Positions 26,537 through 37,513 of a DNA stretch of 37,513 bases are shown here, piece by piece (position 1 is the first letter of the stretch; every line of letters begins with the position of its first letter). Made by a program: the position numbers and the translations under genes. Under the pieces are notes generated by a model. The model ran no database searches and was not told the DNA's origin. It saw nothing but the letters and a program-made list of their open reading frames with translations. Origin of the DNA: Myxococcaceae bacterium (lineage in GTDB: Bacteria; Myxococcota; Myxococcia; Myxococcales; Myxococcaceae); the NCBI GenBank assembly GCA_016926755.1, contig JAFGNZ010000133.1, positions 1 to 37,513 of the forward strand, written 5' to 3'.

Positions 26537-28159
26537 ATGATCCGGCTCGACAACATCGGCAAGCAGCACGGCCAGCAGATCCTCTTCATCGAAGCCTCCG
26601 CCCAGCTCAACCGGGGGGAGAAGATCGGCCTGGTCGGCCCCAACGGCGCGGGCAAGTCCACCCTCTTCCGCATGATCATACAGCAGGAGCACCCGGATGA
26701 GGGCCAGGTCTCGGTCGACCGCGGGGTGAGCATCGGCTACTTCGACCAGGATGTGGGCGAGATGGCCGGGATGACGGCCGTGGCCGCCACCATGGAGGGC
26801 GCCGGCCCGGTCGCCCAGGTCGCCGCCGAGCTCAAGGAGCTGGAGGCCGCCATGGCCGACCCCGAGCGCATGGATGAGCTGGACAAGCTCATCGAGCGCT
26901 TCGGCGTGGTGCAGGGCCGCTATGAAGAGCTGGGCGGCTACGCGCTCGAGGGGCGCGCGCGGGAGATCCTCGCGGGCCTGGGCTTCACCCAGGAGATGAT
27001 GGACGGGGATGTGGGCGCGCTGAGCGGCGGGTGGAAGATGCGCGTGGCGCTGGCCCGCATCCTCCTGATGCGGCCGGACGCCATGCTGCTGGACGAGCCG
27101 AGCAACCACCTGGACATCGAGTCGATCATCTGGCTGGAGAACTTCCTCAAGGGCTACGAGGGCGCCCTGCTGATGACGAGCCACGACCGCGCGTTCATGA
27201 ACCGCGTGGTGACGAAGATCATCGAGATCGACGGCGGCAACCTGACGACGTACTCGGGCGACTACGAGTTCTACGAGCGGCAGCGCGCCCAGAACGAGCG
27301 CCAGCAGCAGGCGCAGTTCGAGCGCCAGCAGGCCATGCTGGCCAAGGAGCTGAAGTTCATCGAGCGCTTCAAGGCGCGCGCCTCGCACGCCGCCCAGGTG
27401 CAGAGCCGGGTGAAGAAGCTGGAGAAGATCGAGAAGGTGGAGCCGCCCAAGCGCCGGCAGACGCTCGTCTTCGAGTTCCAGCCCCCCCCGCGCTCGGGCG
27501 ACGACGTGGCGAAGCTGGAGCAGGTGGTGAAGGGCTACGGCCAGCGCCGCATCTACGACGGGCTGGACTTCCTGGTGCGCCGGGGCGAGCGCTGGTGCGT
27601 GATGGGGGTGAACGGCGCCGGCAAGTCCACGCTGCTCAAGCTCATCGCCGGCGAGGCCCAGCCGGATGACGGGGCGGTGACGGTGGGCTCCAGCGTGAAG
27701 ATGGGCTACTTCGCCCAGCACGCCATGGAGGTGCTGGCGCCGGAGGTGACGGTGTACGAGTCCCTGGTGAACCGCTTCCCGCGCGCCTCCCAGGGCTCGC
27801 TGCGCGCGCTGGCCGGGTGCTTCGGCTTCTCGGGGGAAGAGATCGACAAGAAGTGCCGGGTGCTCTCCGGCGGCGAGAAGGCGCGGCTGGTGCTGGCGCA
27901 GATGCTCTACGATCCGCCCAACTTCCTGGTGCTGGACGAGCCCACCAACCACCTGGACATGGCCACCAAGCAGATGCTCATCACGGCGCTGGCCAACTAC
28001 GAGGGCACCATGCTCTTCGTCAGCCACGACCGGCACTTCCTGGCGGCCCTCTCCAACCGGGTGCTGGAGCTGACGCCCGAGGGCGTGCACCAGTACGGCG
28101 GCGGCTACACGGAGTACGTGGCGCGCACGGGCCAGGAGGCCCCGGGCCTGCGCCACTGA
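26537..28159 (+). CDS. ABC-F ATPase, second copy (distinct subfamily)
   Basis: A 540-aa soluble protein with two ATPase cassettes: Walker A GPNGAGKST at 34-42 (K40), LSGGWKMR, MLLDEPSNHLDIE; then GVNGAGKST, LSGGEKAR, LVLDEPTNHLDMA. A long Gln/Arg-rich interdomain linker (about 245-320) holds charged helices (RQRAQNERQQQAQFERQQ) that would reach the ribosomal tRNA site. It lacks the extended C-terminal coiled coil of the Uup-like protein at 19446, so the two belong to different ABC-F subfamilies. ABC-F members rescue stalled ribosomes or confer antibiotic protection; no proof here that it does the latter. The ATG at 26537 lacks a strong ribosome site. It diverges from the permease pair. Confidence 0.93.
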   Translation: MIRLDNIGKQHGQQILFIEASAQLNRGEKIGLVGPNGAGKSTLFRMIIQQEHPDEGQVSVDRGVSIGYFDQDVGEMAGMTAVAATMEGAGPVAQVAAELKELEAAMADPERMDELDKLIERFGVVQGRYEELGGYALEGRAREILAGLGFTQEMMDGDVGALSGGWKMRVALARILLMRPDAMLLDEPSNHLDIESIIWLENFLKGYEGALLMTSHDRAFMNRVVTKIIEIDGGNLTTYSGDYEFYERQRAQNERQQQAQFERQQAMLAKELKFIERFKARASHAAQVQSRVKKLEKIEKVEPPKRRQTLVFEFQPPPRSGDDVAKLEQVVKGYGQRRIYDGLDFLVRRGERWCVMGVNGAGKSTLLKLIAGEAQPDDGAVTVGSSVKMGYFAQHAMEVLAPEVTVYESLVNRFPRASQGSLRALAGCFGFSGEEIDKKCRVLSGGEKARLVLAQMLYDPPNFLVLDEPTNHLDMATKQMLITALANYEGTMLFVSHDRHFLAALSNRVLELTPEGVHQYGGGYTEYVARTGQEAPGLRH

Positions 28160-28250
28160 CCGGAATTCCGGGGCCGCGTCTTTTCCGCGTGCGACGCGCT
28201 ACGTTGGCAATAGAGTGCGCGCGTCGCCTCGCAACGAAAGACACGCGCCG

Positions 28251-29156
28251 ATGTCCCGTCACACCCTGCTCTCCCTCTCTGTCTTCACGCTGTCGCTCCT
28301 CTCCACCCCCTCGCTCGCGCAGTCGCGCCTGCCGGCCTTCGATCTGGAGCGGCTCCAGTTCGATCCCGGCGCGCTCGGCTCGCTCGTCGTCGGCACGGGC
28401 CGCACGCTGGAGCAGGGCGTCTTCCGCGGCTCGGTCCAGATCCAGTACGCCCAGCAGCCCCTCACCTTCCAGGATCGGTGGGATCCCCAGACGGGCGAGG
28501 CGCTGGTGGAGGGCAAGTTCACCACCCACCTCACCGCGGCCTACGGCGTGCTGCCCTGGCTCGAGGTGGGGGCGCAGGTGCCGTTCATCCTCAACCAGAC
28601 GGGCACGCGCACGTTCGAGGCGCTGCCGCCCGCCAAGACCGGGCTGGGCACCCCATGGCTGGGGGTGCGCGCCGGCGTGCTGAGCATGAAGAACGGCGCG
28701 CCGCTGAACCTCGCGCTGGACGTGTCGGCCGGACTGCCCGTGGGCAGCGGCGAGGCGCTCGCGCGGGATGACTTCGCCGTGTACCCCCGCCTCCAAGTGG
28801 GCTTCCAGGCGGAGTGGTTCCAGCTGGGCCTCGAGGCCGGCACCTTGCTGCGCTCGGAGACGGACATCACCCCATACTCGAACCGGCCCAACGACGTGAT
28901 CGGCAACGAGCTGCGGCTGGGGGGCACGGTGACGTCCCTGGGCGGCAAGAAGACGCGCGGCGAGCTGAGCGTGCTGCTCGGGCTGCCCCTCTCGGGGGGC
29001 CGGATCAACACCGAGGTGCTCCTGGCCATCCGCCGCCACGTCCTGCCCTGGCTGGACCTCTACGTGCTCGGCGGCCCGGGGCTGGGAGTGGCCCTGGATA
29101 CCCCCGCCTTCCGCGTCATCGCCGGCGCCTCCTTCTCCAACGGCCTGATCGACTGA
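28251..29156 (+). CDS. Outer-membrane beta-barrel protein, hypothetical
   Basis: A 301-aa protein. The ATG at 28251 begins a signal peptide (LLSLSVFTLSLLSTPSLAQS, cleavage near residue 24). The rest is a run of alternating strands with aromatic girdle residues, periodic glycine and an ending in an apolar strand (ASFSNGLID), typical of myxobacterial outer-membrane barrels that in other proteins are fused to OmpA domains; none is fused here. No transport substrate can be inferred. The stop is 6 bp before the sigma factor start, so the two are very likely co-transcribed. Bases 28824-28893 occur almost identically again at 34367-34436. Confidence 0.8.
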   Translation: MSRHTLLSLSVFTLSLLSTPSLAQSRLPAFDLERLQFDPGALGSLVVGTGRTLEQGVFRGSVQIQYAQQPLTFQDRWDPQTGEALVEGKFTTHLTAAYGVLPWLEVGAQVPFILNQTGTRTFEALPPAKTGLGTPWLGVRAGVLSMKNGAPLNLALDVSAGLPVGSGEALARDDFAVYPRLQVGFQAEWFQLGLEAGTLLRSETDITPYSNRPNDVIGNELRLGGTVTSLGGKKTRGELSVLLGLPLSGGRINTEVLLAIRRHVLPWLDLYVLGGPGLGVALDTPAFRVIAGASFSNGLID

Positions 29157-29162
29157 GCCGCC

Positions 29163-29969
29163 TTGGAGCCGCTGCGCGCCGCACGCGAGGCCTGGCCCGG
29201 GATTGAGATCGATCCGGAGCAGTTCGCCGCGCATGTGGAGTCCCTTCGACGAGCGGGCGGAGGCTCGCCGGAGCATCTCGCCGATGTGTACCTGGCCTTC
29301 GCGGCCACGCAGGGCCATGCGGCGGCGCTCCGCGCCTTTGACGAGCACCTCCTGGCGGGGATCACCCCCGCCGTGCGCGGCGTGGACACCGCGGAGGACT
29401 TCATCGCCGAAGTGCGCCAGGTCTTGCGCGCGCGACTCCTCGTCGGGACCGGGGATGCGCCGCCGCGCATCGCCGAGTACAAAGGGCGCGGTCCCCTCCT
29501 GGCATGGGTCCGTATCGCGGCCGTGCGCGTCGCCCTGAACCTGAAGCGCGCCGAGGCGCCGGCGGCCGCCGCGGAGGACCTGCTGGGAGAGCTGGCGGCG
29601 AGCGAGCCGGATCCCGAGCTCCGCCACCTCAAGACCCTCTACCGCGCTGAGTTTGGCGCCGCGCTCCGCGAGGCCCTCGCGGCGCTCTCGGAGCGGCAGC
29701 GCGTGCTCCTACGGCTCCACTACGTCGATGGGCTCCGGCTGGCGCGGATCGCGAGGCTCTACCAGGTGCATGAGTCGACCGTCTCCCGGTGGGTGAGCAG
29801 CGCGGTCGACACGGTGTCCCTGAGCGCGAGACGTCGGCTCATCGAGCGCCTGGCCCTCTCGCCCTCCAGCTTCGACAGCGTGGCGCGCATGGTGCAGAGC
29901 CACCTGGATCTGAGCATCCGTCGCCTCCTGGGCGGTGCTGTTGGCTCCTCCGATCCCGGCACGTCCTGA
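29163..29969 (+). CDS. Sigma-70 family (ECF-like) sigma factor, TTG start
   Basis: A 268-aa RNA polymerase sigma factor of an atypical myxobacterial type. The C-terminal region 4 is clear: LSERQRVLLRLHYVDGLRLARI (about 174-195), then a helix-turn-helix (ARLYQVHESTVSRWV, about 197-211). Region 2 (about 75-130) is divergent and is recognised mostly from its WVRIAAVRVALNLKR end. A C-terminal extension of about 55 residues is unusual. The TTG at 29163 is 7 bases after the previous stop, without a clear ribosome site; internal GTG codons are possible but would remove conserved N-terminal sequence. Because it directly follows an outer-membrane protein, it may report on envelope state; a kinase with an anti-sigma-like zinc motif lies two genes on. 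Confidence 0.85.
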   Translation: MEPLRAAREAWPGIEIDPEQFAAHVESLRRAGGGSPEHLADVYLAFAATQGHAAALRAFDEHLLAGITPAVRGVDTAEDFIAEVRQVLRARLLVGTGDAPPRIAEYKGRGPLLAWVRIAAVRVALNLKRAEAPAAAAEDLLGELAASEPDPELRHLKTLYRAEFGAALREALAALSERQRVLLRLHYVDGLRLARIARLYQVHESTVSRWVSSAVDTVSLSARRRLIERLALSPSSFDSVARMVQSHLDLSIRRLLGGAVGSSDPGTS

Positions 29970-30043
29970 GCCTCGCGGCTCCGCCTCCGATCTTTTTCCG
30001 CAAGATTTTCCCGGGGCCGTGTCCTGGGGGCATGGAGGTGCTC

Positions 30044-31402
30044 ATGTCCTCGAGCCACATACGGATGCAGTCCCAGGGTCGTGTCGCGATGTCGGTCTTC
30101 CTCTGCTGCCTGATCGGCCTGGCCGCCAGCGGGTGTGGGAAGGAGGAGTCGGACGGCGCCGACTCGTTCATGTCCTCCGTGGAACAGGCCGCTTCCACGA
30201 GCGGGGGAAGGGTCCTCGAGGCCACACGGGAGGAGGTCGCCAGCGAGGTGTACCACTACAGCCTCCTGCTGCGGGTGGGAGACACCCCCAATGCCCGCCT
30301 GCGGCTCCACCGGGTGGTGCGGGAGCAGGCCCCGTGGCGGCCACGGCCGACGCGGCAGGCCGTGCTGCTGCTCCACGGCGACTTCTCCACCTTCACGTCC
30401 AACTTCGTTCCATCGCCACTCCAGGCCGAGCGCCCATCCGGCCATGGCCTGGCCGTGTACCTGGCCAGGCAGGGGATTGACGTGTGGGGTGTGGATCGCC
30501 GGTGGAGCACGGCTCCCTCGGAGGGAGCCTCCCTCTCCGATTTCGCCGGCATGGGGTTCGCGGCGGCGATCGACGACGTGGGGCGCGCACTGTCGTTGGC
30601 GCGAGCGCTGCGCGGCCTGACCGGCTCGGGTTCGGATCGAATGATCCTGGCCGGCTTCAGCCGCGGCGGACACCTCGCGTATACCTACGCCGCCGCGGAG
30701 GCGCGGCGACCGCTGGCCCAGCGCCACATCAAGGGACTGGTCCCCATCGACATCTACGCGGTGATCGCGCCTGGGGATGAGGCGCTCCGAGAGGGGGCGT
30801 GCGCTCGGAGCAACGAGGAGCGCGCCTGGCTCCAAGCGGGCCTGTACGACAGCGATAACAGCTGGTTCATCGATCTCGGCACGCTCGCCTCCTCCGCGCC
30901 CTCCGAGCCATCACCGCTCCTCGAAGGCTTCACCAACCGCGGCGCCCTCCTGGCCTTCGCATCACAGACCTACTGGCTCTACGCTCCCCAGCCCAACTAC
31001 CACCTGGCGGGCGGCGTGCTCACGGACGGCGTGCCCACTGCGCTGCGCTACTCGCCCGAGGCGGTGTTCGCCCAGTGGCTCGCCAGCGCGCCCCGTCATC
31101 AAGCGCTGGCCGAGATCGCCGACAGCGACGCGCTCTTTTGTGGCGAGGCGCCCCTGCCGGTGGCCAGCTCCCTGGGTGAGATCCAGGTTCCGCTCTTCTA
31201 CCTGGGGGCCGCGGGCGGGTTCGGTGATCACGGCGTGTACTCGACAGCGCTCGTCGGCTCCACCGACGTCTCCACGCACATCGTCCGCCGGCTGGAGGCC
31301 GCCCGCGAGGCAGAGGACTTCGGCCACGCGGACCTGCTCTACGCTGACGACGCGCCCGCGCTCGCGTGGCACCCGCTGGCGGCGTGGATCCTCCAGCATT
31401 GA
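30044..31402 (+). CDS. Lipoprotein alpha/beta hydrolase
   Basis: A 452-aa lipid-anchored serine hydrolase. ATG 30044 is chosen over two nearby ATGs because GGAGG lies 5 bases upstream. The signal peptide ends in LAASGC, giving a lipid-modified cysteine near residue 27. The nucleophile elbow GFSRGG places Ser206; LLLHGDFS upstream forms the oxyanion strand, and the VDRRW strand follows. A late LAWHP segment could hold the catalytic His; acidic residues just before it (YADDAP) are candidates for the third residue. The substrate is unknown; esterase or lipase is likely. It sits between the sigma factor and the kinase, with only 74 and 50 bp spacers, suggesting an operon. Confidence 0.88.
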   Translation: MSSSHIRMQSQGRVAMSVFLCCLIGLAASGCGKEESDGADSFMSSVEQAASTSGGRVLEATREEVASEVYHYSLLLRVGDTPNARLRLHRVVREQAPWRPRPTRQAVLLLHGDFSTFTSNFVPSPLQAERPSGHGLAVYLARQGIDVWGVDRRWSTAPSEGASLSDFAGMGFAAAIDDVGRALSLARALRGLTGSGSDRMILAGFSRGGHLAYTYAAAEARRPLAQRHIKGLVPIDIYAVIAPGDEALREGACARSNEERAWLQAGLYDSDNSWFIDLGTLASSAPSEPSPLLEGFTNRGALLAFASQTYWLYAPQPNYHLAGGVLTDGVPTALRYSPEAVFAQWLASAPRHQALAEIADSDALFCGEAPLPVASSLGEIQVPLFYLGAAGGFGDHGVYSTALVGSTDVSTHIVRRLEAAREAEDFGHADLLYADDAPALAWHPLAAWILQH

Positions 31403-31452
31403 GGAAGCGGCCGGCCGCTCCCGGCGAGATGGCCTGATCTAGGATACGCCGC

Positions 31453-34185
31453 ATGGCAGGCTGCATCGCCGAGGATGACCTCCTCTCACTCGTTCAGGGC
31501 CAGCGCCCCCTCGGGGACATGTCCTCCCTCGAGGCCCACCTCGCGGACTGCCCCGCGTGCAGCGCCCTGCTCGCCACCCTGCTCTCGAACTCGAGCAGGG
31601 AGCAGGCGGGGGGCTGGGGCAACCTCGCGGGGCGCTCGCTCGGCCCCTACCGGCTGGACGTCCAGATCGGCGCAGGCGCGGCGGGCGAGGTGTACCGCGC
31701 CTGGGACCAGCGCCTGAACCGGCATGTGGCCGTGAAGGTGCTATCGCCACGCGTCGCTGACTCGCCGGAGCAGATACGCCGCCTGGAGGCGGAGGGGCGC
31801 GCGGCCGCGGCGATTGCCCACCCCAACGTCGTCACCGTGCATGACGTCGGCAGCCTCGACGGCATGCCGTTCATCGTGAGCGAGCTGATCGAGGGCGAGT
31901 CCCTGCGGAGCCTCATCGACCGTGGCGCCCTCCCCCGAGCGCGGGCACTCCAGCTGGGCCTGCAGCTCGTCCGCGGCCTCGCCGCCGCGCACGCGCGAGG
32001 CGTCGTGCATCGGGACCTCAAGCCTGAGAACCTGCTGGTGACCCGGGAGGGGACGCTGAAGATCCTCGACTTTGGCCTGGCCAGGCTCACGGAGACGAAC
32101 CCTGGGCAGGAGCTCGATGCGACCCAGCCCGGCACGGTGCTCGGGACCGCGGGGTATCTGTCGCCCGAGCAGGCTCGGGGCGAGCCCGCAGACGCTCGCA
32201 GCGATCTCTTCTCCGTGGGGGCCATCCTCTATGAGCTGCTGAGCGGCCAGCGTGCGTTCGGTGGAGCCACCTTCGCCGAGCGCCTGTCGTCCGTACTGCG
32301 CGACACGCCCCAGCGCCTGGACGCCGAGGCCCTCGGCGCTGCGCTCCCGGTGGTGGCCCGGTGCCTTGAGAAGGACGCGAGCCGCCGCTGCCAGTCCGCG
32401 CAGGATCTCGCGTGGGTCCTGGAAGGCCTGATCAACGCCTCACAGGCCCCGGAGGCACCGGCCCTTCCCCGCTCGTCGCGAGCCGGGCCAGCACGGCCCC
32501 TCCCGCGCCGCTCCTTGTTGATAAGCATGGCCGCGAGCGGAATCGGCGGTGCCCTGCTGAGCCAGGTGCTGGTGCCCCGGCAGCCTCCCGTCTCCGCCAG
32601 GGTCCATCCGGCCTACCAGCAGCTGACCTACCGCCATGGCCGCCTCACGAGTGCCCGGTTCACCCGCGATGGGGGCAGCGTGGTGTACGCAGCCGCGTGG
32701 GATGGGCAGCCGCTGTCGGTCTACACCTCCCGGCTCGGTGGCGGAGGGACGCGCCCGCTGGCGCTGCCGTCCTCGGATGTGCTGGCGATCTCGTCCCGTG
32801 GCCAGCTCGCGCTGTGTCTCGGGCGCCGGTACGTCGCGGGGTTCCATACCCACGGCCAGCTCGCCATCGCTCCTCTCGAGGGCGGGGAGCCGCGGATCCT
32901 CGCGGACGCAGTGCAGGAGGCCGACTTCACCCCCGACGGACATGAGCTGGCGATCATCCGGCGAGGCGGCGACGGCTTCCGCCTCGAGCTGCCCCTGGGC
33001 AACCCCTTGTTCGAGACCCGGGGGTGGCTGAGCCACGCACGCCTCTCTCCCGAGGGTGAGCGGGTGGCGTGTCTCCTGCACCCCTCTCCAATGGACGATC
33101 GCGGCTCGCTCCTGGTCATCGAGCGCGGCACCGGCGCGGCGCGCGCGATCTCCGACGGGTGGAGCAGCATCGCCGGGCTGGCGTGGGAGCCCGACGGACG
33201 CGGGCTCTGGTTCACCGCGGCGAAGAGAGGCAGCAACAGCGCGCTCCGCTCCGTGTCCCTGGAGGGCCGAGAGGCGTTCATCGCGGAGACGACCGGCCGC
33301 CTCCGCCTGCATGATCTCTCCCAGGCGGGGCTCGCCCTGGTCACGCATGACACCTGGCGCATGCGCATGATGGTCCGAGCGCCAGGCGCGAGCGGCGAGG
33401 CCGATCTCTCGTTGTCAGATATCTCGCTGGCCGGAGACCTGTCGGCCGACGGGAGCACGCTCGTGTTCGGCGAGTTCGGCGACATCGAGCTGGAGAGCGG
33501 TAGCTACCTGCGGCCGACACATGGCGGCTCCGCGCTCCGACTCGGGGCCGGGCATCCGGCCTCCCTCTCCGCGAGTGGCCGTCACGTCCTCGCGGTCATG
33601 GGCGGCACACCGTCTCGCGTGCTCATCCACTCCACCTCAACGGGCGAGCAGCAAGAGCTGTCTCTCGGGCCCATCCATGAGGTGCTGGGCGTGCGGTGGA
33701 GCGGAGACGATCAGCTCGTCCTCGTCGGGGCTGTCCGCGAGCGCCCTCCCAGGCTCTGGCGCGTGGCCAGGAAGGCCGGCGCTCCCACACCGCTCACGGA
33801 CGAGGGGCTCTTCGGGCACTGCCAGGTGAGCCCGGATGGGAAGCACGTGGCGTTCATCGCCGCGGACGGCCGGTGCCTGCTGCTCCCCGTCGATGCTCCG
33901 GGCGCCGTCCAGGTCATCCCCGGCAGCTACCGCGACGAACAAGTCTGCGGCTTTCGCGTGGGTGGCTCGGAGCTGTTCGTGCGCAGCCTCGCGCTCCCCA
34001 TCCGCATCCGGCGCGTGGCCCTCAGCACCGGACACTCTGTGCCACACGCGGAGATACTCCCGCCCGCGCTGGGACTGAAAGGGGTCGACTCCTTCGTCCT
34101 GAGCGCCACGGGGGAGGCGTACGCCTACAGCTATGGTCAAGAGCTCAACCGGCTTTATGCCATGCGCCGCCGGGTGCCGGCGTGA
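31453..34185 (+). CDS. Ser/Thr protein kinase with N-terminal zinc motif and C-terminal beta-propeller
   Basis: A 910-aa membrane kinase. Residues 1-45 carry HxxxCxxC (H29, C33, C36), the signature of zinc-binding anti-sigma domains. Kinase at about 68-330: K95, HRDLKPEN at 186-193 (D188), DFG at 206-208, and GTAGYLSPEQ. A transmembrane helix at about 355-375 (LLISMAASGIGGALLSQVLV) puts the C-terminus in the periplasm. Residues about 395-900 are PD40/TolB-like propeller repeats (for example FTRDGGSVVYAAAWDG, LSPEGERVACL, VSPDGKHVAF). Family knowledge: anti-sigma and kinase domains fused in this way occur in myxobacteria and planctomycetes. The likely partner is the sigma factor at 29163. The ATG at 31453 follows TAGGAT, a modest ribosome site. 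The 3' end meets a rearranged stretch. Confidence 0.93.
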   Translation: MAGCIAEDDLLSLVQGQRPLGDMSSLEAHLADCPACSALLATLLSNSSREQAGGWGNLAGRSLGPYRLDVQIGAGAAGEVYRAWDQRLNRHVAVKVLSPRVADSPEQIRRLEAEGRAAAAIAHPNVVTVHDVGSLDGMPFIVSELIEGESLRSLIDRGALPRARALQLGLQLVRGLAAAHARGVVHRDLKPENLLVTREGTLKILDFGLARLTETNPGQELDATQPGTVLGTAGYLSPEQARGEPADARSDLFSVGAILYELLSGQRAFGGATFAERLSSVLRDTPQRLDAEALGAALPVVARCLEKDASRRCQSAQDLAWVLEGLINASQAPEAPALPRSSRAGPARPLPRRSLLISMAASGIGGALLSQVLVPRQPPVSARVHPAYQQLTYRHGRLTSARFTRDGGSVVYAAAWDGQPLSVYTSRLGGGGTRPLALPSSDVLAISSRGQLALCLGRRYVAGFHTHGQLAIAPLEGGEPRILADAVQEADFTPDGHELAIIRRGGDGFRLELPLGNPLFETRGWLSHARLSPEGERVACLLHPSPMDDRGSLLVIERGTGAARAISDGWSSIAGLAWEPDGRGLWFTAAKRGSNSALRSVSLEGREAFIAETTGRLRLHDLSQAGLALVTHDTWRMRMMVRAPGASGEADLSLSDISLAGDLSADGSTLVFGEFGDIELESGSYLRPTHGGSALRLGAGHPASLSASGRHVLAVMGGTPSRVLIHSTSTGEQQELSLGPIHEVLGVRWSGDDQLVLVGAVRERPPRLWRVARKAGAPTPLTDEGLFGHCQVSPDGKHVAFIAADGRCLLLPVDAPGAVQVIPGSYRDEQVCGFRVGGSELFVRSLALPIRIRRVALSTGHSVPHAEILPPALGLKGVDSFVLSATGEAYAYSYGQELNRLYAMRRRVPA

Positions 34186-34192
34186 CGCGTCG

Positions 34193-34369
34193 TCAGCGGC
34201 CGCATGCCCTGTCCATGCTCCGTGTCCACCAGCGGCGCGAGTTTGCTGCCACCTGCCGAGCTGCGTCCTCGGTGGCTCCGAGGCGCTTCAGCTCCCGGTA
34301 GATGGTTGTTCCCCGCTTCCACTGCTTGAGTTGCACCATGCGTAGCCGGTGGCGGATCCACTCGTCCTG
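34193..34369 (-). pseudogene. Fragment of a group II intron reverse transcriptase/maturase
   Basis: The minus strand encodes DEWIRHRLRMVQLKQW, then RGTTIYRELKRLGAT and AANSRRWW, which match the maturase-specific domain (thumb-side) at the C-terminal end of group II intron-encoded proteins. The reverse transcriptase core, the usual final LGVPRLS-like segment and the intron domains V/VI are not seen. Reading from 34369, the match ends abruptly where the outer-membrane-gene fragment begins. This is a remnant, not a functional element. It shows that a group II intron once lay in or near this site, or that a piece was carried in by recombination. Confidence 0.85.
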
Positions 34370-34436
34370 GGCCTCGAGGCCGGCGCCTTGCTGCGCTCGG
34401 AGACGGACATCACCCCGTACTCGAACCGGCCCAACG
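34367..34436 (+). repeat. 70-bp near-copy of the outer-membrane protein gene (28824-28893)
   Basis: Bases 34367-34436 match 28824-28893 at 68 of 70 positions, one difference being silent and one changing Thr to Ala. The fragment would encode LGLEAGALLRSETDITPY and the next residues in the same sense as the source gene, but has no start or stop context. It lies directly against the maturase remnant on one side and 1 bp before the beta-helix gene stop on the other. It is a remnant of a second barrel gene or a recombined piece. Confidence 0.95.
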
Positions 34437-34437
34437 G

Positions 34438-36501
34438 TTACTGCACCCGATCCAGAAGCCCCATGCTCTGGTACGGCGAGCCCGGAGCGAGCCGCACGTC
34501 GTCCGGCGGATAGCCAAGGTCCTCCCAGATCTGTGGGGCCGTGCCGGGAACCGTCCCCGTGATCGAACTGCCGCTGATGTTGCGGTACATGACCCCCAGG
34601 TGCATCACGTAGTCTCCCGGCGGGTAGTACACCGGCGTGCTCGGGTCCGGGCAGCGGCCGCATGTCGCGGTCCACATCTCGACGCGCAGGTAGTCGAAGT
34701 CGGGCGGAAACCCGAAGTCGTTGAAGGCGACCGGGGCGACCGTTCCGCGAATGTTGCCGCTGGCCACCACGTTACCGGAGGATCCGTTCTCGCCCGCGAA
34801 GCGATTGGTCAGGTTCAAGCTCATGTCGAAGCGGTTGTCCTGGAGGACAACGGGGTTCTGCGACATGGCGATCCGGAACAGGTGATTGGGTTGGATCTCG
34901 TCGGGATACACCTCCGGCCGTTGCCAGCTGAATCCACGGAAGAAGTTCCGCTCGAAGCGATACGCGGTGATGCCATCCTGATCGCCGCCCAGATATGCCC
35001 CCAGCCCGCGGAACGACGAGTAGTAGTTGTCATGCAGCGTCAACACGTCGCCAGCGGCGTGGCTGTCGCCGTCTCGCACCTGGGCGAAGAACGAGATCAA
35101 CGATCCCGCCGCCCCGATGAAGACGTTGTGGTGGATGGCGCCACGTCCGTAGCGGACAGCGATCTGGGTATTGTTGTCCTGCCAGCGCTGGAACGCGTCC
35201 TTCCAGTCGATGGCCGAGAGCGCGAAGACGTTGTTGTGAACGTTGGTGCCGTCGCCGAGCTGCCCAAGCTGCAGCGCTTCCGTAGCGGTTCGTAGCACCC
35301 GGCAGTTGGAGATCTCGAGGTTCTCCACCGGGTGCTGCGGGGGGGCCTGCGTGCTTCCGATGTAGAAGCCCTCGCTGCCGGTGTCGTGGATGTAGAGGTC
35401 GTGCAGCCACACGTTGCGCATGACCGCGGTGCCGTTGTTGTCGGTCTTCATGTTGATGCCAGCAAAGCCAACTTCCCGGATCTCCACGTACGACACCTCG
35501 AAATCCGTGGCCCCTCCCCCGATGGCCAGGCCGCTGTTCGACCGCCCCAGGTAGAAGTCGTCATCCATCAGGATGCCGTACGTGCCGCGCGTGTTGCTGT
35601 AGTTGTTCCCCTTGTGCCCGCGGAAGCCGGCGTCACCCGTCTGCGCGCCGGCATCGTCCTCGCCGGTCAGGATCCAGTGGGAGCCACCGCCCAGGGCGAA
35701 CAGGTAGTAGTGCCCGAGACCTCCGACGCGGACCTGGCCTCCCTTGTTGGTGATCACCAACGGCCGTGCTGGGCTGCGCGCCGGCAGGTTGCCGATGTTG
35801 ATGAAGGCGTAGTGTCCGGCAGACAGGTAGAGCCGATCGAGCGTGGACCAATCGACGGCGGGATATGTCTGCTGAATGTTGGGAAGATACAGCTTGCCGT
35901 TGGCCGGATACGGGAGGGTGAAGGTGTTCAACTGCGCGGTCGTCTTCCAGCCGAGGATCGCGTACTCCTTCGCGCGGTTGCTCATCACCGATGGAGAGCG
36001 GCAGAGCAGATAGCGAGCTCGGGGGGTGAGCACGCTCGCGCTCAGGTCCCGGTCTCGTATCCACGGCTCCTGCGAACCGGTGGACAGGCCCTGCGCGGTG
36101 TTGAAGTTCAAGCGGGTCTCGGTCATGCCGCTGTCGTTGACCGTGTCGACATCGTCATCCCACCAGAGTTCGGAGTACGGCGTCTGATCGCCGACGCTGA
36201 AGGTGCGGTACCGGGTCCAGGTGGAGCTGATCCTCACCGTGGCCCACTCGGGTCCAAAGTCGATGTAGCCGACTCGACCGGCGTAGTAGGGCGCGTCGCG
36301 CCCGCCGGTCCCGCCCACCGGCTGGCCAGCGCTGTTCAGCGTGGGCTGAGCGTCGAACGCGAACTGCATCGGGAAGTAGGCGCTCCCGGTAGCTGCGCCG
36401 GCGGCGATCGGCGTCAGCACCTGCACGGTCTGCGCGGACGCGGAGAATGCAACAACGCCACTGATGACGGCGACAGCGACAAGTGATCCTGGCCTGGCCA
36501 T
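34438..36501 (-). CDS. Secreted right-handed beta-helix protein with C-terminal carbohydrate-binding-like segment
   Basis: A 687-aa secreted protein. Starting at ATG 36499-36501 gives a textbook signal peptide (MARPGSLVAVAVISG, cleavage ASA|Q near residue 24) with GGGAG 5 bases upstream; the open frame extends 32 codons further but lacks such features. The centre (about 220-560) is a parallel beta-helix of NosD/pectate-lyase type with repeated short Asn/Gly-rich turns (ILMDDDFYLG, VEIREVGFAGI, LYIHDTGSEGFYIG, IHHNVFIGAAG). The last 60 residues (YPPGDYVMHLGVMYRNI then GTAPQIWEDLGY) resemble CBM5/12-like chitin-binding modules. A polysaccharide lyase or glycan-binding role is inferred. It is monocistronic, and its stop abuts the repeat fragment. 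Catalytic residues cannot be assigned by eye. Confidence 0.85.
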   Translation of the reverse strand: MARPGSLVAVAVISGVVAFSASAQTVQVLTPIAAGAATGSAYFPMQFAFDAQPTLNSAGQPVGGTGGRDAPYYAGRVGYIDFGPEWATVRISSTWTRYRTFSVGDQTPYSELWWDDDVDTVNDSGMTETRLNFNTAQGLSTGSQEPWIRDRDLSASVLTPRARYLLCRSPSVMSNRAKEYAILGWKTTAQLNTFTLPYPANGKLYLPNIQQTYPAVDWSTLDRLYLSAGHYAFINIGNLPARSPARPLVITNKGGQVRVGGLGHYYLFALGGGSHWILTGEDDAGAQTGDAGFRGHKGNNYSNTRGTYGILMDDDFYLGRSNSGLAIGGGATDFEVSYVEIREVGFAGINMKTDNNGTAVMRNVWLHDLYIHDTGSEGFYIGSTQAPPQHPVENLEISNCRVLRTATEALQLGQLGDGTNVHNNVFALSAIDWKDAFQRWQDNNTQIAVRYGRGAIHHNVFIGAAGSLISFFAQVRDGDSHAAGDVLTLHDNYYSSFRGLGAYLGGDQDGITAYRFERNFFRGFSWQRPEVYPDEIQPNHLFRIAMSQNPVVLQDNRFDMSLNLTNRFAGENGSSGNVVASGNIRGTVAPVAFNDFGFPPDFDYLRVEMWTATCGRCPDPSTPVYYPPGDYVMHLGVMYRNISGSSITGTVPGTAPQIWEDLGYPPDDVRLAPGSPYQSMGLLDRVQ

Positions 36502-36791
36502 GAGCGCTCCCAGAGGAGAGCGGACGATACGGAGGCGCTCCATCAGCGACATCGTCCTGCGAGCCACCTGAAAGAAAGGCGACACGCACCGGCCCATGCC
36601 CGTTCGGAATCAGACTGCCGGAGTCATGGCCCTGGGGAGCCGTGTCGCATGAGGGAGAGGTCGGTGTACGACGATGTGCGACCGCAAAGATGTGTCGGCG
36701 CGGTGGAAACTTTCGATGAGGTGAGGCGGAGAATTCTTACAGGTAGGCAGCTTCCCTCACACACGCCTGCCACGCTCAAAGGAGGAGAGTC

Positions 36792-37064
36792 ATGTTCGTG
36801 ACCGCCTTTATCCACTTCATGGTCTCCACCTTCATGAGCGGAGTCCGCGCCACCACCGGGCAGGAGCTGAAGTGGCTTGCCAGCGCGCCGGTGGAGCTGC
36901 AGCGCCAGATGCGGGTGCAGATCGAGCTGCAGAAGGAGCAGGAGCTGGTCCAGATGCTCGTGCGGACCTTCGACGCGATCTGCGGGTGGCAGAAGGAGGA
37001 AGAGGCCCTCCGGAGCAGCGCGCGGGGGAGCAACCAGACGCGCGTCCGGTACTCGAGGGCCTGA
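36792..37064 (+). CDS. Small coiled-coil hypothetical protein
   Basis: A 90-aa protein with a strong AAAGGAGGAG ribosome site 5 bases before the ATG. I do not recognise a family. The first 22 residues are hydrophobic (FVTAFIHFMVSTFMSGV), either a short anchor or an amphipathic helix. Residues about 33-73 (APVELQRQMRVQIELQKEQELVQMLV) form a likely coiled coil; the tail is polar and basic. The strong ribosome site and the heptad pattern make it a real gene. It diverges from the beta-helix gene over 290 bp, in which I see no confident promoter; the GAATTCTTACAGG at 36731-36743 could contain a -10. Confidence 0.7.
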   Translation: MFVTAFIHFMVSTFMSGVRATTGQELKWLASAPVELQRQMRVQIELQKEQELVQMLVRTFDAICGWQKEEEALRSSARGSNQTRVRYSRA

Positions 37065-37110
37065 GGTAAAGCGAGGGCGGAGCCGAAGGAGGAGCGGACG
37101 CCGCGCCGCG

Positions 37111-37256
37111 TCACCGCTGGGAGCGAGGCTTGCGCGCTTTCACACTCCGGCCACGCTTGCCCGTCTTGCGTGCCGCCGGCTTGGGGGTGGGCCCCCGCGC
37201 GAAGAGCTCCTGAGTGGACTCCACCGTCGCTGCCTTGCGCAGCCAGATCTTGAGCT
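37111..37256 (-). pseudogene. Unidentified basic C-terminal fragment
   Basis: The minus strand holds about 48 codons ending in a stop at 37111-37113 (from QLKIWLRKAATVESTQ to a Lys/Arg-rich KTGKRGRSVKARK tail). It resembles the C-terminal tail of a DNA-binding or mobile-element protein, but I recognise no family. Its 5' side stops where kinase homology begins on the other strand, so it looks like a fragment joined by rearrangement. A chance ORF cannot be excluded. Confidence 0.3.
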
Positions 37257-37513
37257 GGGCGAGTCTACCAGGCCGTGCCCGTAGACAATCCCCACGCCCA
37301 CCCCGTCGCACTCAAGCTCGCCCTGCTCCCCAGGGATCCTCGCTTCGCGCGCGAGGTGGAGCTGCTCTCGTGCACCCGACACCCCAGCATCCCCCGCCTG
37401 TGGGACCAGGGGGAGTGGCTGCACCCGGGCGGCACGCTCTACCCGTTCCTCGTGATGGACTGGGTGGAGGGAGTGCCGCTGTATGACCAGGCACGGCAGA
37501 GCAATCCCTCCTC
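37257..37513 (+). pseudogene. 5'-truncated Ser/Thr protein kinase, continues past window
   Basis: The frame from 37257 reads GRVYQAVPVDNPHAHP, VALKLALL with the ATP-anchoring lysine, then REVELLSCTRHPSIPRLWD and YPFLVMDWVEGVPLYD. These are the glycine loop end, strand 3, helix C region and hinge of a Ser/Thr kinase N-lobe. An in-frame TGA at 37251-37253 lies just upstream, and there is no ATG or ribosome site before conserved sequence begins, so the first part of the gene is missing. The C-lobe, outside the window, may be intact. A start at an internal GTG would omit the glycine loop. Confidence 0.75.

Follow-up and report, generated by a model that had tools for sequence, protein, structure and literature searches.

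A sigma factor and a receptor-like kinase encoded in one gene cluster of a myxobacterium probably form a sigma/anti-sigma pair in which the membrane-bound anti-sigma factor is also a receptor-type serine/threonine (Ser/Thr) kinase and would release the sigma factor by phosphorylation. The cluster lies in a stretch of 37,513 nucleotides from Myxococcaceae bacterium (contig JAFGNZ010000133.1, here contig C215 of the 9.6 Mb host genome G000), the whole of which is referred to as the window. Four open reading frames called on the plus strand encode an outer-membrane-barrel-like protein (OMP, 28251-29156), the sigma factor (SIG, 29163-29969), a lipid-anchored alpha/beta hydrolase (HYD, 30032-31402, starting at 30032 or 30044) and the kinase (KIN, 31453-34185). 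A preliminary description of this DNA had joined all four into an envelope-signalling module, and their common orientation and short spacers are confirmed (6 nt from the OMP stop to the SIG start, 62 or 74 nt from SIG to HYD and 50 nt from HYD to KIN). The SIG-KIN part of that module is borne out, but the barrel and a conserved hydrolase partner are not. Judged by comparison of loci, the module is smaller than four genes, with HYD as an exchangeable partner and OMP as an apparently unrelated neighbour. The sequence part of this account rests on the homology of the KIN N-terminus to zinc anti-sigma (ZAS) domains, on the recurrence of the pair, on the occurrence of ZAS domain and sigma neighbour in one clade and on intact catalytic motifs.

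SIG belongs to the extracytoplasmic function (ECF)-type family Sig-70_gmx1 (gmx1), scoring 244.2 bits against the NCBIfam model TIGR03001 at a curated cut-off of 154.6; the model concerns the sigma factor alone, and no text on partners of TIGR03001 sigmas came up. In the PDB, a profile built from 19 sigma sequences picks up AlgU and RpoE. A Foldseek search with the SIG model gave no match at E 0.001, its top rows being ECF sigmas and the best of them AlgU in complex with MucA (E 5.3e-3). The alignment to TIGR03001 covers positions 23-243 of 244, and the absence of the first 22 profile positions makes the start of SIG unusual: this start is a TTG, the first in-frame start behind the OMP stop, and the N-terminus is shortened. 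With 13 candidates scored per genome, gmx1 sigmas were found at E 1e-25 or better in at least 109 of 195 genomes of the phylum, 108 of them above the cut-off, and in 0 of 14 control genomes among the matches listed.

The recurrence of the pair was examined at 86 sigma loci, comprising the window, its four paralogues in the same genome, one locus in genome G014 and 80 loci chosen from listed matches. A kinase was taken as partner when either end of its reading frame is no more than 2 kb away and the motif C/H-x24-H-x3-C-x2-C stands just before the kinase domain. Such a ZAS-motif kinase stands near the gmx1 sigma in 77 of the 86 loci, so that the preliminary view of sigma factor and zinc-kinase as a regulatory pair holds. 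Two loci have a near kinase without the motif (L192 and L197, the latter cut by a contig end), and the L192 sigma has a motif-bearing kinase on its opposite side. Eight of 12 named loci have a ZAS kinase, including that of Myxococcus xanthus AM003 and those of three Labilithrix/Myxococcales metagenome-assembled genomes (MAGs); two MAG loci in this set have additional nearby kinases without the motif. Four of the 12 named contigs are equal in length to contigs among those counted above (L270/L150, L271/L143, L275/L151 and L277/L135), and the named loci are therefore no independent sample.

The host genome allows the same relation to be viewed against its own kinases, of which 153 matches were recorded. 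Each of its five gmx1 sigmas above the cut-off has an HxxxCxxC kinase as its direct neighbour or with a single gene in between. That motif occurs in only one of 30 control kinases, which are the 30 best-scoring of the 153 and no random draw, and this one is the gmx1 neighbour on contig C243; the other four gmx1 partner kinases fall outside the 30. A genome so rich in kinases could place a sigma factor and an unrelated kinase with an incidental zinc motif side by side by chance, yet such an explanation is hardly credible given the 77 of 86 loci set against 1 of 30 kinases and, within the sampling used, the single clade of ZAS-bearing, sigma-linked kinases described below. As both motif and neighbour relation recur in most loci examined, the association goes beyond chance.

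The N-terminus of KIN (31453-31608) is, by motif and profile, a class I ZAS domain, which would be expected to bind sigma and inhibit it. Class I zinc anti-sigma factors have an Hx3Cx2C motif and, at a fixed distance upstream, a Cys or His ligand. The HxxxCxxC motif given for the kinase N-terminus in the preliminary description is present as H29, C33 and C36 and is preceded by C4 (C4-x24-H29-x3-C33-x2-C36). The spacing of 24 residues between the upstream Cys/His and the His is the same in 77 of 77 ZAS kinases, and the upstream position, 25 residues ahead of the His, aligns with a His of ChrR. When the first 52 residues are searched against the PDB as a 46-row profile, RslA (3hug, E 1.5e-6), DdvA (8rlz, 1.8e-4) and ChrR (2q1z, 4.2e-4) come up; together with 2z2s, the matches to solved class I ZAS proteins span E 1.5e-6 to 5.2e-4. 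KIN thus shares with the class I group (RsrA, ChrR, RslA, RsiW) the N-terminal domain, as detected by profile (RslA, DdvA, ChrR), the HxxxCxxC motif with its upstream ligand and the pairing with an ECF sigma gene. It differs in that a complete Hanks-type kinase continues the same polypeptide, followed in the window by a propeller-like domain with predicted export.

The kinase domain of KIN (Pfam residues 66-315, 31648-32397) matches Pkinase with 151.7 bits and is PknB-like, although below the curated cut-off of that model; the catalytic motifs VAVKV (92), HRDLKPEN (186) and DFG (206) are present. Residues 355-373 (32515-32571) are a probable transmembrane (TM) segment, with a hydropathy of 1.7 compared to 2.0-2.8 in the relatives L121, L137, L140 and L148. 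In the AlphaFold2 model, N-terminal helices and a kinase fold are followed by some 520 residues of all-beta structure (387-905, 32611-34167), which match the Gmad1 propeller with 20.7 bits at a cut-off of 20.5; relatives are 28-43% identical to KIN over this part. The 50 rows listed by Foldseek for the KIN model contain kinases alone and no propeller. With its catalytic motifs, a weak TM segment and predicted export, KIN is a candidate Hanks-type receptor kinase. KIN was also considered as a defence gene, but its PADLOC matches (PD-T4-6 and others) are kinase models lying over the kinase domain and are uninformative on function, so this assignment was rejected.

If the kinase domain served another pathway, KIN could be a classical membrane anti-sigma factor from which the sigma is freed by proteolysis or by a zinc/redox change in the ZAS domain. 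There are precedents for both routes, since some ZAS anti-sigmas sense redox via their zinc and RseA is cleaved (background on ECF sigmas, kinases and anti-sigmas was drawn from PMC8999054, PMC13147305, PMC7406223, PMC8103513, PMC2887360 and PMC6213207). However, all 77 ZAS kinases retain HxDxKxxN and 76 of the 77 DFG, while the scanned C-termini vary (TPR, nSTAND, pil_N, propeller), which makes a bystander kinase unlikely. An example of this variation in the host genome is the gmx1 partner kinase at L040 (3849-7787, minus strand, contig C243), which has nSTAND1 and FGE-sulfatase domains and no propeller.

Distance correlations over the 77 pairs, which are short, related sequences with no outside control, amount to 0.89 between sigma and ZAS domain, 0.82 between sigma and kinase domain and 0.78 between the ZAS domain and its own kinase domain. 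The partial correlation of sigma and ZAS given the kinase is 0.71, that of sigma and kinase given ZAS 0.43. For ECF/ASDI pairs a correlation of 0.82 has been published, with negative controls at 0.5-0.6 (PMC7406223).

A single clade of the propeller-kinase family accounts for both the ZAS domain and the sigma neighbour. At E 1e-30, and with seven candidates scored per genome, propeller homologues occupy at least 48 places, spread over 34 of the 195 genomes. Thirty-six propeller kinases including that of the window were examined, L262 being dropped as too short and 11 listed places left out. Fourteen have the ZAS motif as well as a sigma no farther than 3.5 kb away, 21 have neither, one has the motif alone and none has a sigma alone; the kinase with the motif alone (L248) adjoins a shortened SGL-like gene. 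The 15 ZAS-bearing sequences form one clade (99/96) with the window KIN as its deepest branch, so the Fisher value for the association (4e-9) must not be taken to count independent events.

Several observations weigh against the proposed pair, beyond the reservations already attached to the control kinases and to the correlations. The 80 loci were chosen by hand among the matches listed, mostly by closeness to the window sigma. Six of the 86 loci are without a kinase in the fetched flanks, one has only a distant kinase without the motif and in L197 the kinase is truncated by the contig end; among the 12 named loci, four lack a kinase match (L272, L273, L274 and L276). The kinase-less loci indicate that gmx1 sigmas may occur with no kinase beside them. 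Four of the six (L136, L139, L142 and L155) represent a single locus type, in which the sigma gene lies between an alanine-racemase-like and a small phosphatase-like gene, both named from their sequences, and loci resembling these in gene lengths and order retain the kinase. On the side of the ZAS domain, RsiW (5wuq) is reached only at E 0.11, behind a CHAT protein (8rot, 0.0085) and a ferritin entry (3vnx, 0.091), and Pfam zf-HC2 scores 15.8 bits on the window KIN, below the cut-off of 22.2. The TM segment of KIN is just moderately hydrophobic. Lastly, in a FastTree sigma tree with a weak backbone (0.144) the window SIG groups with L199 (0.82), apart from the sigmas of 13 sister cassettes, that is, the sigma-linked propeller-kinase relatives, which counts against a simple vertical history.

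The register of the region 2.2 stretch DAED in gmx1 sigmas, taken from the profile alignment to PDB sigmas, bears on a further explanation. In ECF43 sigmas, activation by phosphorylation supplies a missing negative charge in this region, and if gmx1 sigmas worked alike, the zinc domain would dock the sigma without inhibiting it. Gene pairs of an ECF43 sigma and a kinase are known (EcfP/PknT of Vibrio parahaemolyticus and EcfK/PknS of Xanthomonas citri), the active-site motifs of the ZAS kinases are intact, and the window SIG itself keeps only the last acid of the stretch. The rule for ECF43 is the loss of the DAED acids (STTA in EcfP), whereas all 86 gmx1 sigmas have E or D at the last position (E83 in the window, three residues before a conserved Gln) and 61 of the 86 have D or E one residue earlier, the window SIG being among the 25 with the last acid only. 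Membership of SIG in ECF43 was accordingly rejected, although a kinase gene adjoins, and an ECF43-like activation is improbable, about as much so as the classical route above.

The sequence of events that would follow from a combined anti-sigma and kinase protein is as follows. The ZAS domain of KIN would tether SIG to the membrane on its inner side. Probably aided by the co-encoded lipoprotein, the exported propeller would sense the state of the envelope, and the signal would cross the TM segment and change kinase activity, in one direction or the other. Phosphorylation of the ZAS domain, the linker or SIG might then loosen the complex, and the freed SIG would join RNA polymerase.

Related arrangements have been described. 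ECF43 systems likewise place an ECF sigma beside a Ser/Thr kinase gene, but gmx1 sigmas keep the acid that ECF43 sigmas lost and their partner kinases bear an anti-sigma domain. In Mycobacterium tuberculosis, a ZAS anti-sigma factor (RshA) and a Ser/Thr kinase (PknB) control one ECF sigma (SigH), as is proposed for the window, but anti-sigma factor and kinase are separate proteins there, whereas KIN is one polypeptide. The elements are individually known. A sigma family that is paired as a rule with a fused anti-sigma factor and kinase appears to be new, with priority unsure, as open-literature searches did not turn up gmx1 sigmas described together with ZAS kinases but did not cover the ECF re-classification paper that may name the group. 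Myxobacteria carry very many Ser/Thr kinases, and in most loci examined the sequence rule assigns one of them to one sigma and proposes that the kinase itself is the anti-sigma factor. If true, receptor, kinase and anti-sigma factor would be joined in one protein with a freely swapped C-terminal part, and the wiring from kinase to gene expression could be tested in a laboratory species, as Myxococcus xanthus has such a locus.

The gene between sigma and kinase is a recurrent feature of these loci, with changing identity. HYD has a lipobox (..LAASG-C35, codon 30134) and a nucleophile elbow GFSRGG (Ser codon 30659). Its match to Abhydrolase_3 is weak (18.7 bits, cut-off 25), and its profile finds one solved esterase, 2rau (E 8.4e-8). 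None of the 17 aligned homologues departs from Ser206, Asp408 and His428 (numbered from 30044), the putative catalytic triad. A co-oriented order SIG-X-KIN was found by the gene caller in 23 loci, and in 18 of these X is a small protein that resembles in sequence the tail of the kinase itself (shuffle z 9.6 to 26.1); in L147, the sole pair scanned, both X and the kinase tail contain the pilus-N domain PF13629. In 13 of 13 sigma-linked propeller-kinase relatives, X is SMP-30/NHL-like by similarity to the X of L121, the Pfam scan covering L121 and L137, and an extra called frame lies between the genes in three of the 13. The four X sequences inspected (L121, L137, L140 and L148) have a lipobox. 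An exported protein between sigma and kinase is therefore present in all 13 sister loci, in partial support of the preliminary description, but it belongs to another family there, and among these loci the hydrolase is confined to the window. Since X is encoded with the receptor in many loci but differs in family, the partner slot is a real theme whose occupant is exchanged.

What the slot protein does is a matter for tentative proposals. S9 peptidases combine a propeller and a hydrolase in one layout. It is conceivable, though rather less than likely, that a myxobacterial receptor class with anti-sigma factor and kinase in one protein exists, in whose SIG-X-KIN subclass X, resembling the exported domain of the kinase, acts as its ligand or titrator, and that HYD and the propeller rebuild the S9 layout in the window, with KIN reading the occupancy of HYD. 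SMP-30/NHL-like X proteins stand beside propeller-tailed kinases in 4 of the 23 SIG-X-KIN cassettes. Simple alignment gave no match between X and propeller in four tested cases and the window (z -0.8 to 1.9).

A joint circuit of barrel, sigma, hydrolase and kinase, with a product of the hydrolase as the signal, was the original proposal for the window. Co-orientation and short spacers speak for it, and because SIG starts 6 nt past the OMP stop it may be read from the OMP transcript. The distribution of hydrolase and barrel is difficult to reconcile with it. Homologues of HYD occur in 62 of 195 genomes, and by visual comparison no listed place lies near a listed propeller-kinase place except in the window. 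Of 21 places outside the host genome, 19 loci were fetched, two weak ones being left out, and 0 of 19 contain a gmx1 sigma; a kinase-like frame occurs somewhere in the stretch in L045, L047, L054 and L057. HYD was thus rejected as a conserved partner, and the idea that its product is the signal is left without support, as the sister cassettes carry another protein family. Of 59 genomes, 45 contain OMP homologues, one of them as many as 13, but in 0 of 8 orthologue loci, fetched from the nine best places outside the host genome, do they adjoin a sigma or ZAS kinase, and a kinase is present farther off in L113, L114 and L116. OMP was therefore rejected as a member of the module. With 13 of 13 sister cassettes having a different slot protein and a rearranged junction at the site, the four-gene circuit is very doubtful. 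The preliminary description had named homologues occurring routinely without each other as the finding that would count against it; this is the case for barrel and hydrolase, and the sigma-kinase pair stays together in the main.

We read the genes that follow the barrel gene as an accessory cassette at a site of rearrangement, on the following comparisons. In genome G020 the order is ABC-F, barrel and a conserved block, and in G002 the same order is interrupted by a PtuA/PtuB (Septu) pair. In the host genome the conserved block sits on another contig, with its first gene 94% identical. A 70-nt copy (97%) of OMP 28824-28893 lies at 34367-34436 on the plus strand, 181 nt past the KIN stop, so that copies of this repeat bracket the cassette and mark the rearranged junction. 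At the right edge, outside the module, the C-terminal part of a group II intron maturase survives as a remnant (34196-34375, minus strand; GIIM 21 bits, cut-off 23). OMP itself scores 29.2 bits against the TraB model (cut-off 700, profile positions 32-290 of 522), far from membership, and matched no Pfam family at E 0.1. A consensus scan of 28150-34450 returned 0 promoters and 0 terminators, and Rfam gave 0 matches at gathering score in 28000-37513.

Some observations concern the surroundings of this site. In the sister species G002, the PtuA/PtuB pair of the Septu defence system lies behind the barrel orthologue (L113, 8643-10569), a candidate insertion hot spot. Next to the displaced block of the host genome (L247, 2070-7592, contig C373) is a PNP_UDP_1 - TPR protein, scored by PADLOC as 'Effector' with 60.7 bits, whose gene adjoins one with LodA (L-lysine oxidase) domains. 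Beyond the cassette in the window, a frame of 719 amino acids (34438-36597, minus strand) is weakly matched by a right-handed beta-helix model (14.1 bits, cut-off 25.9).

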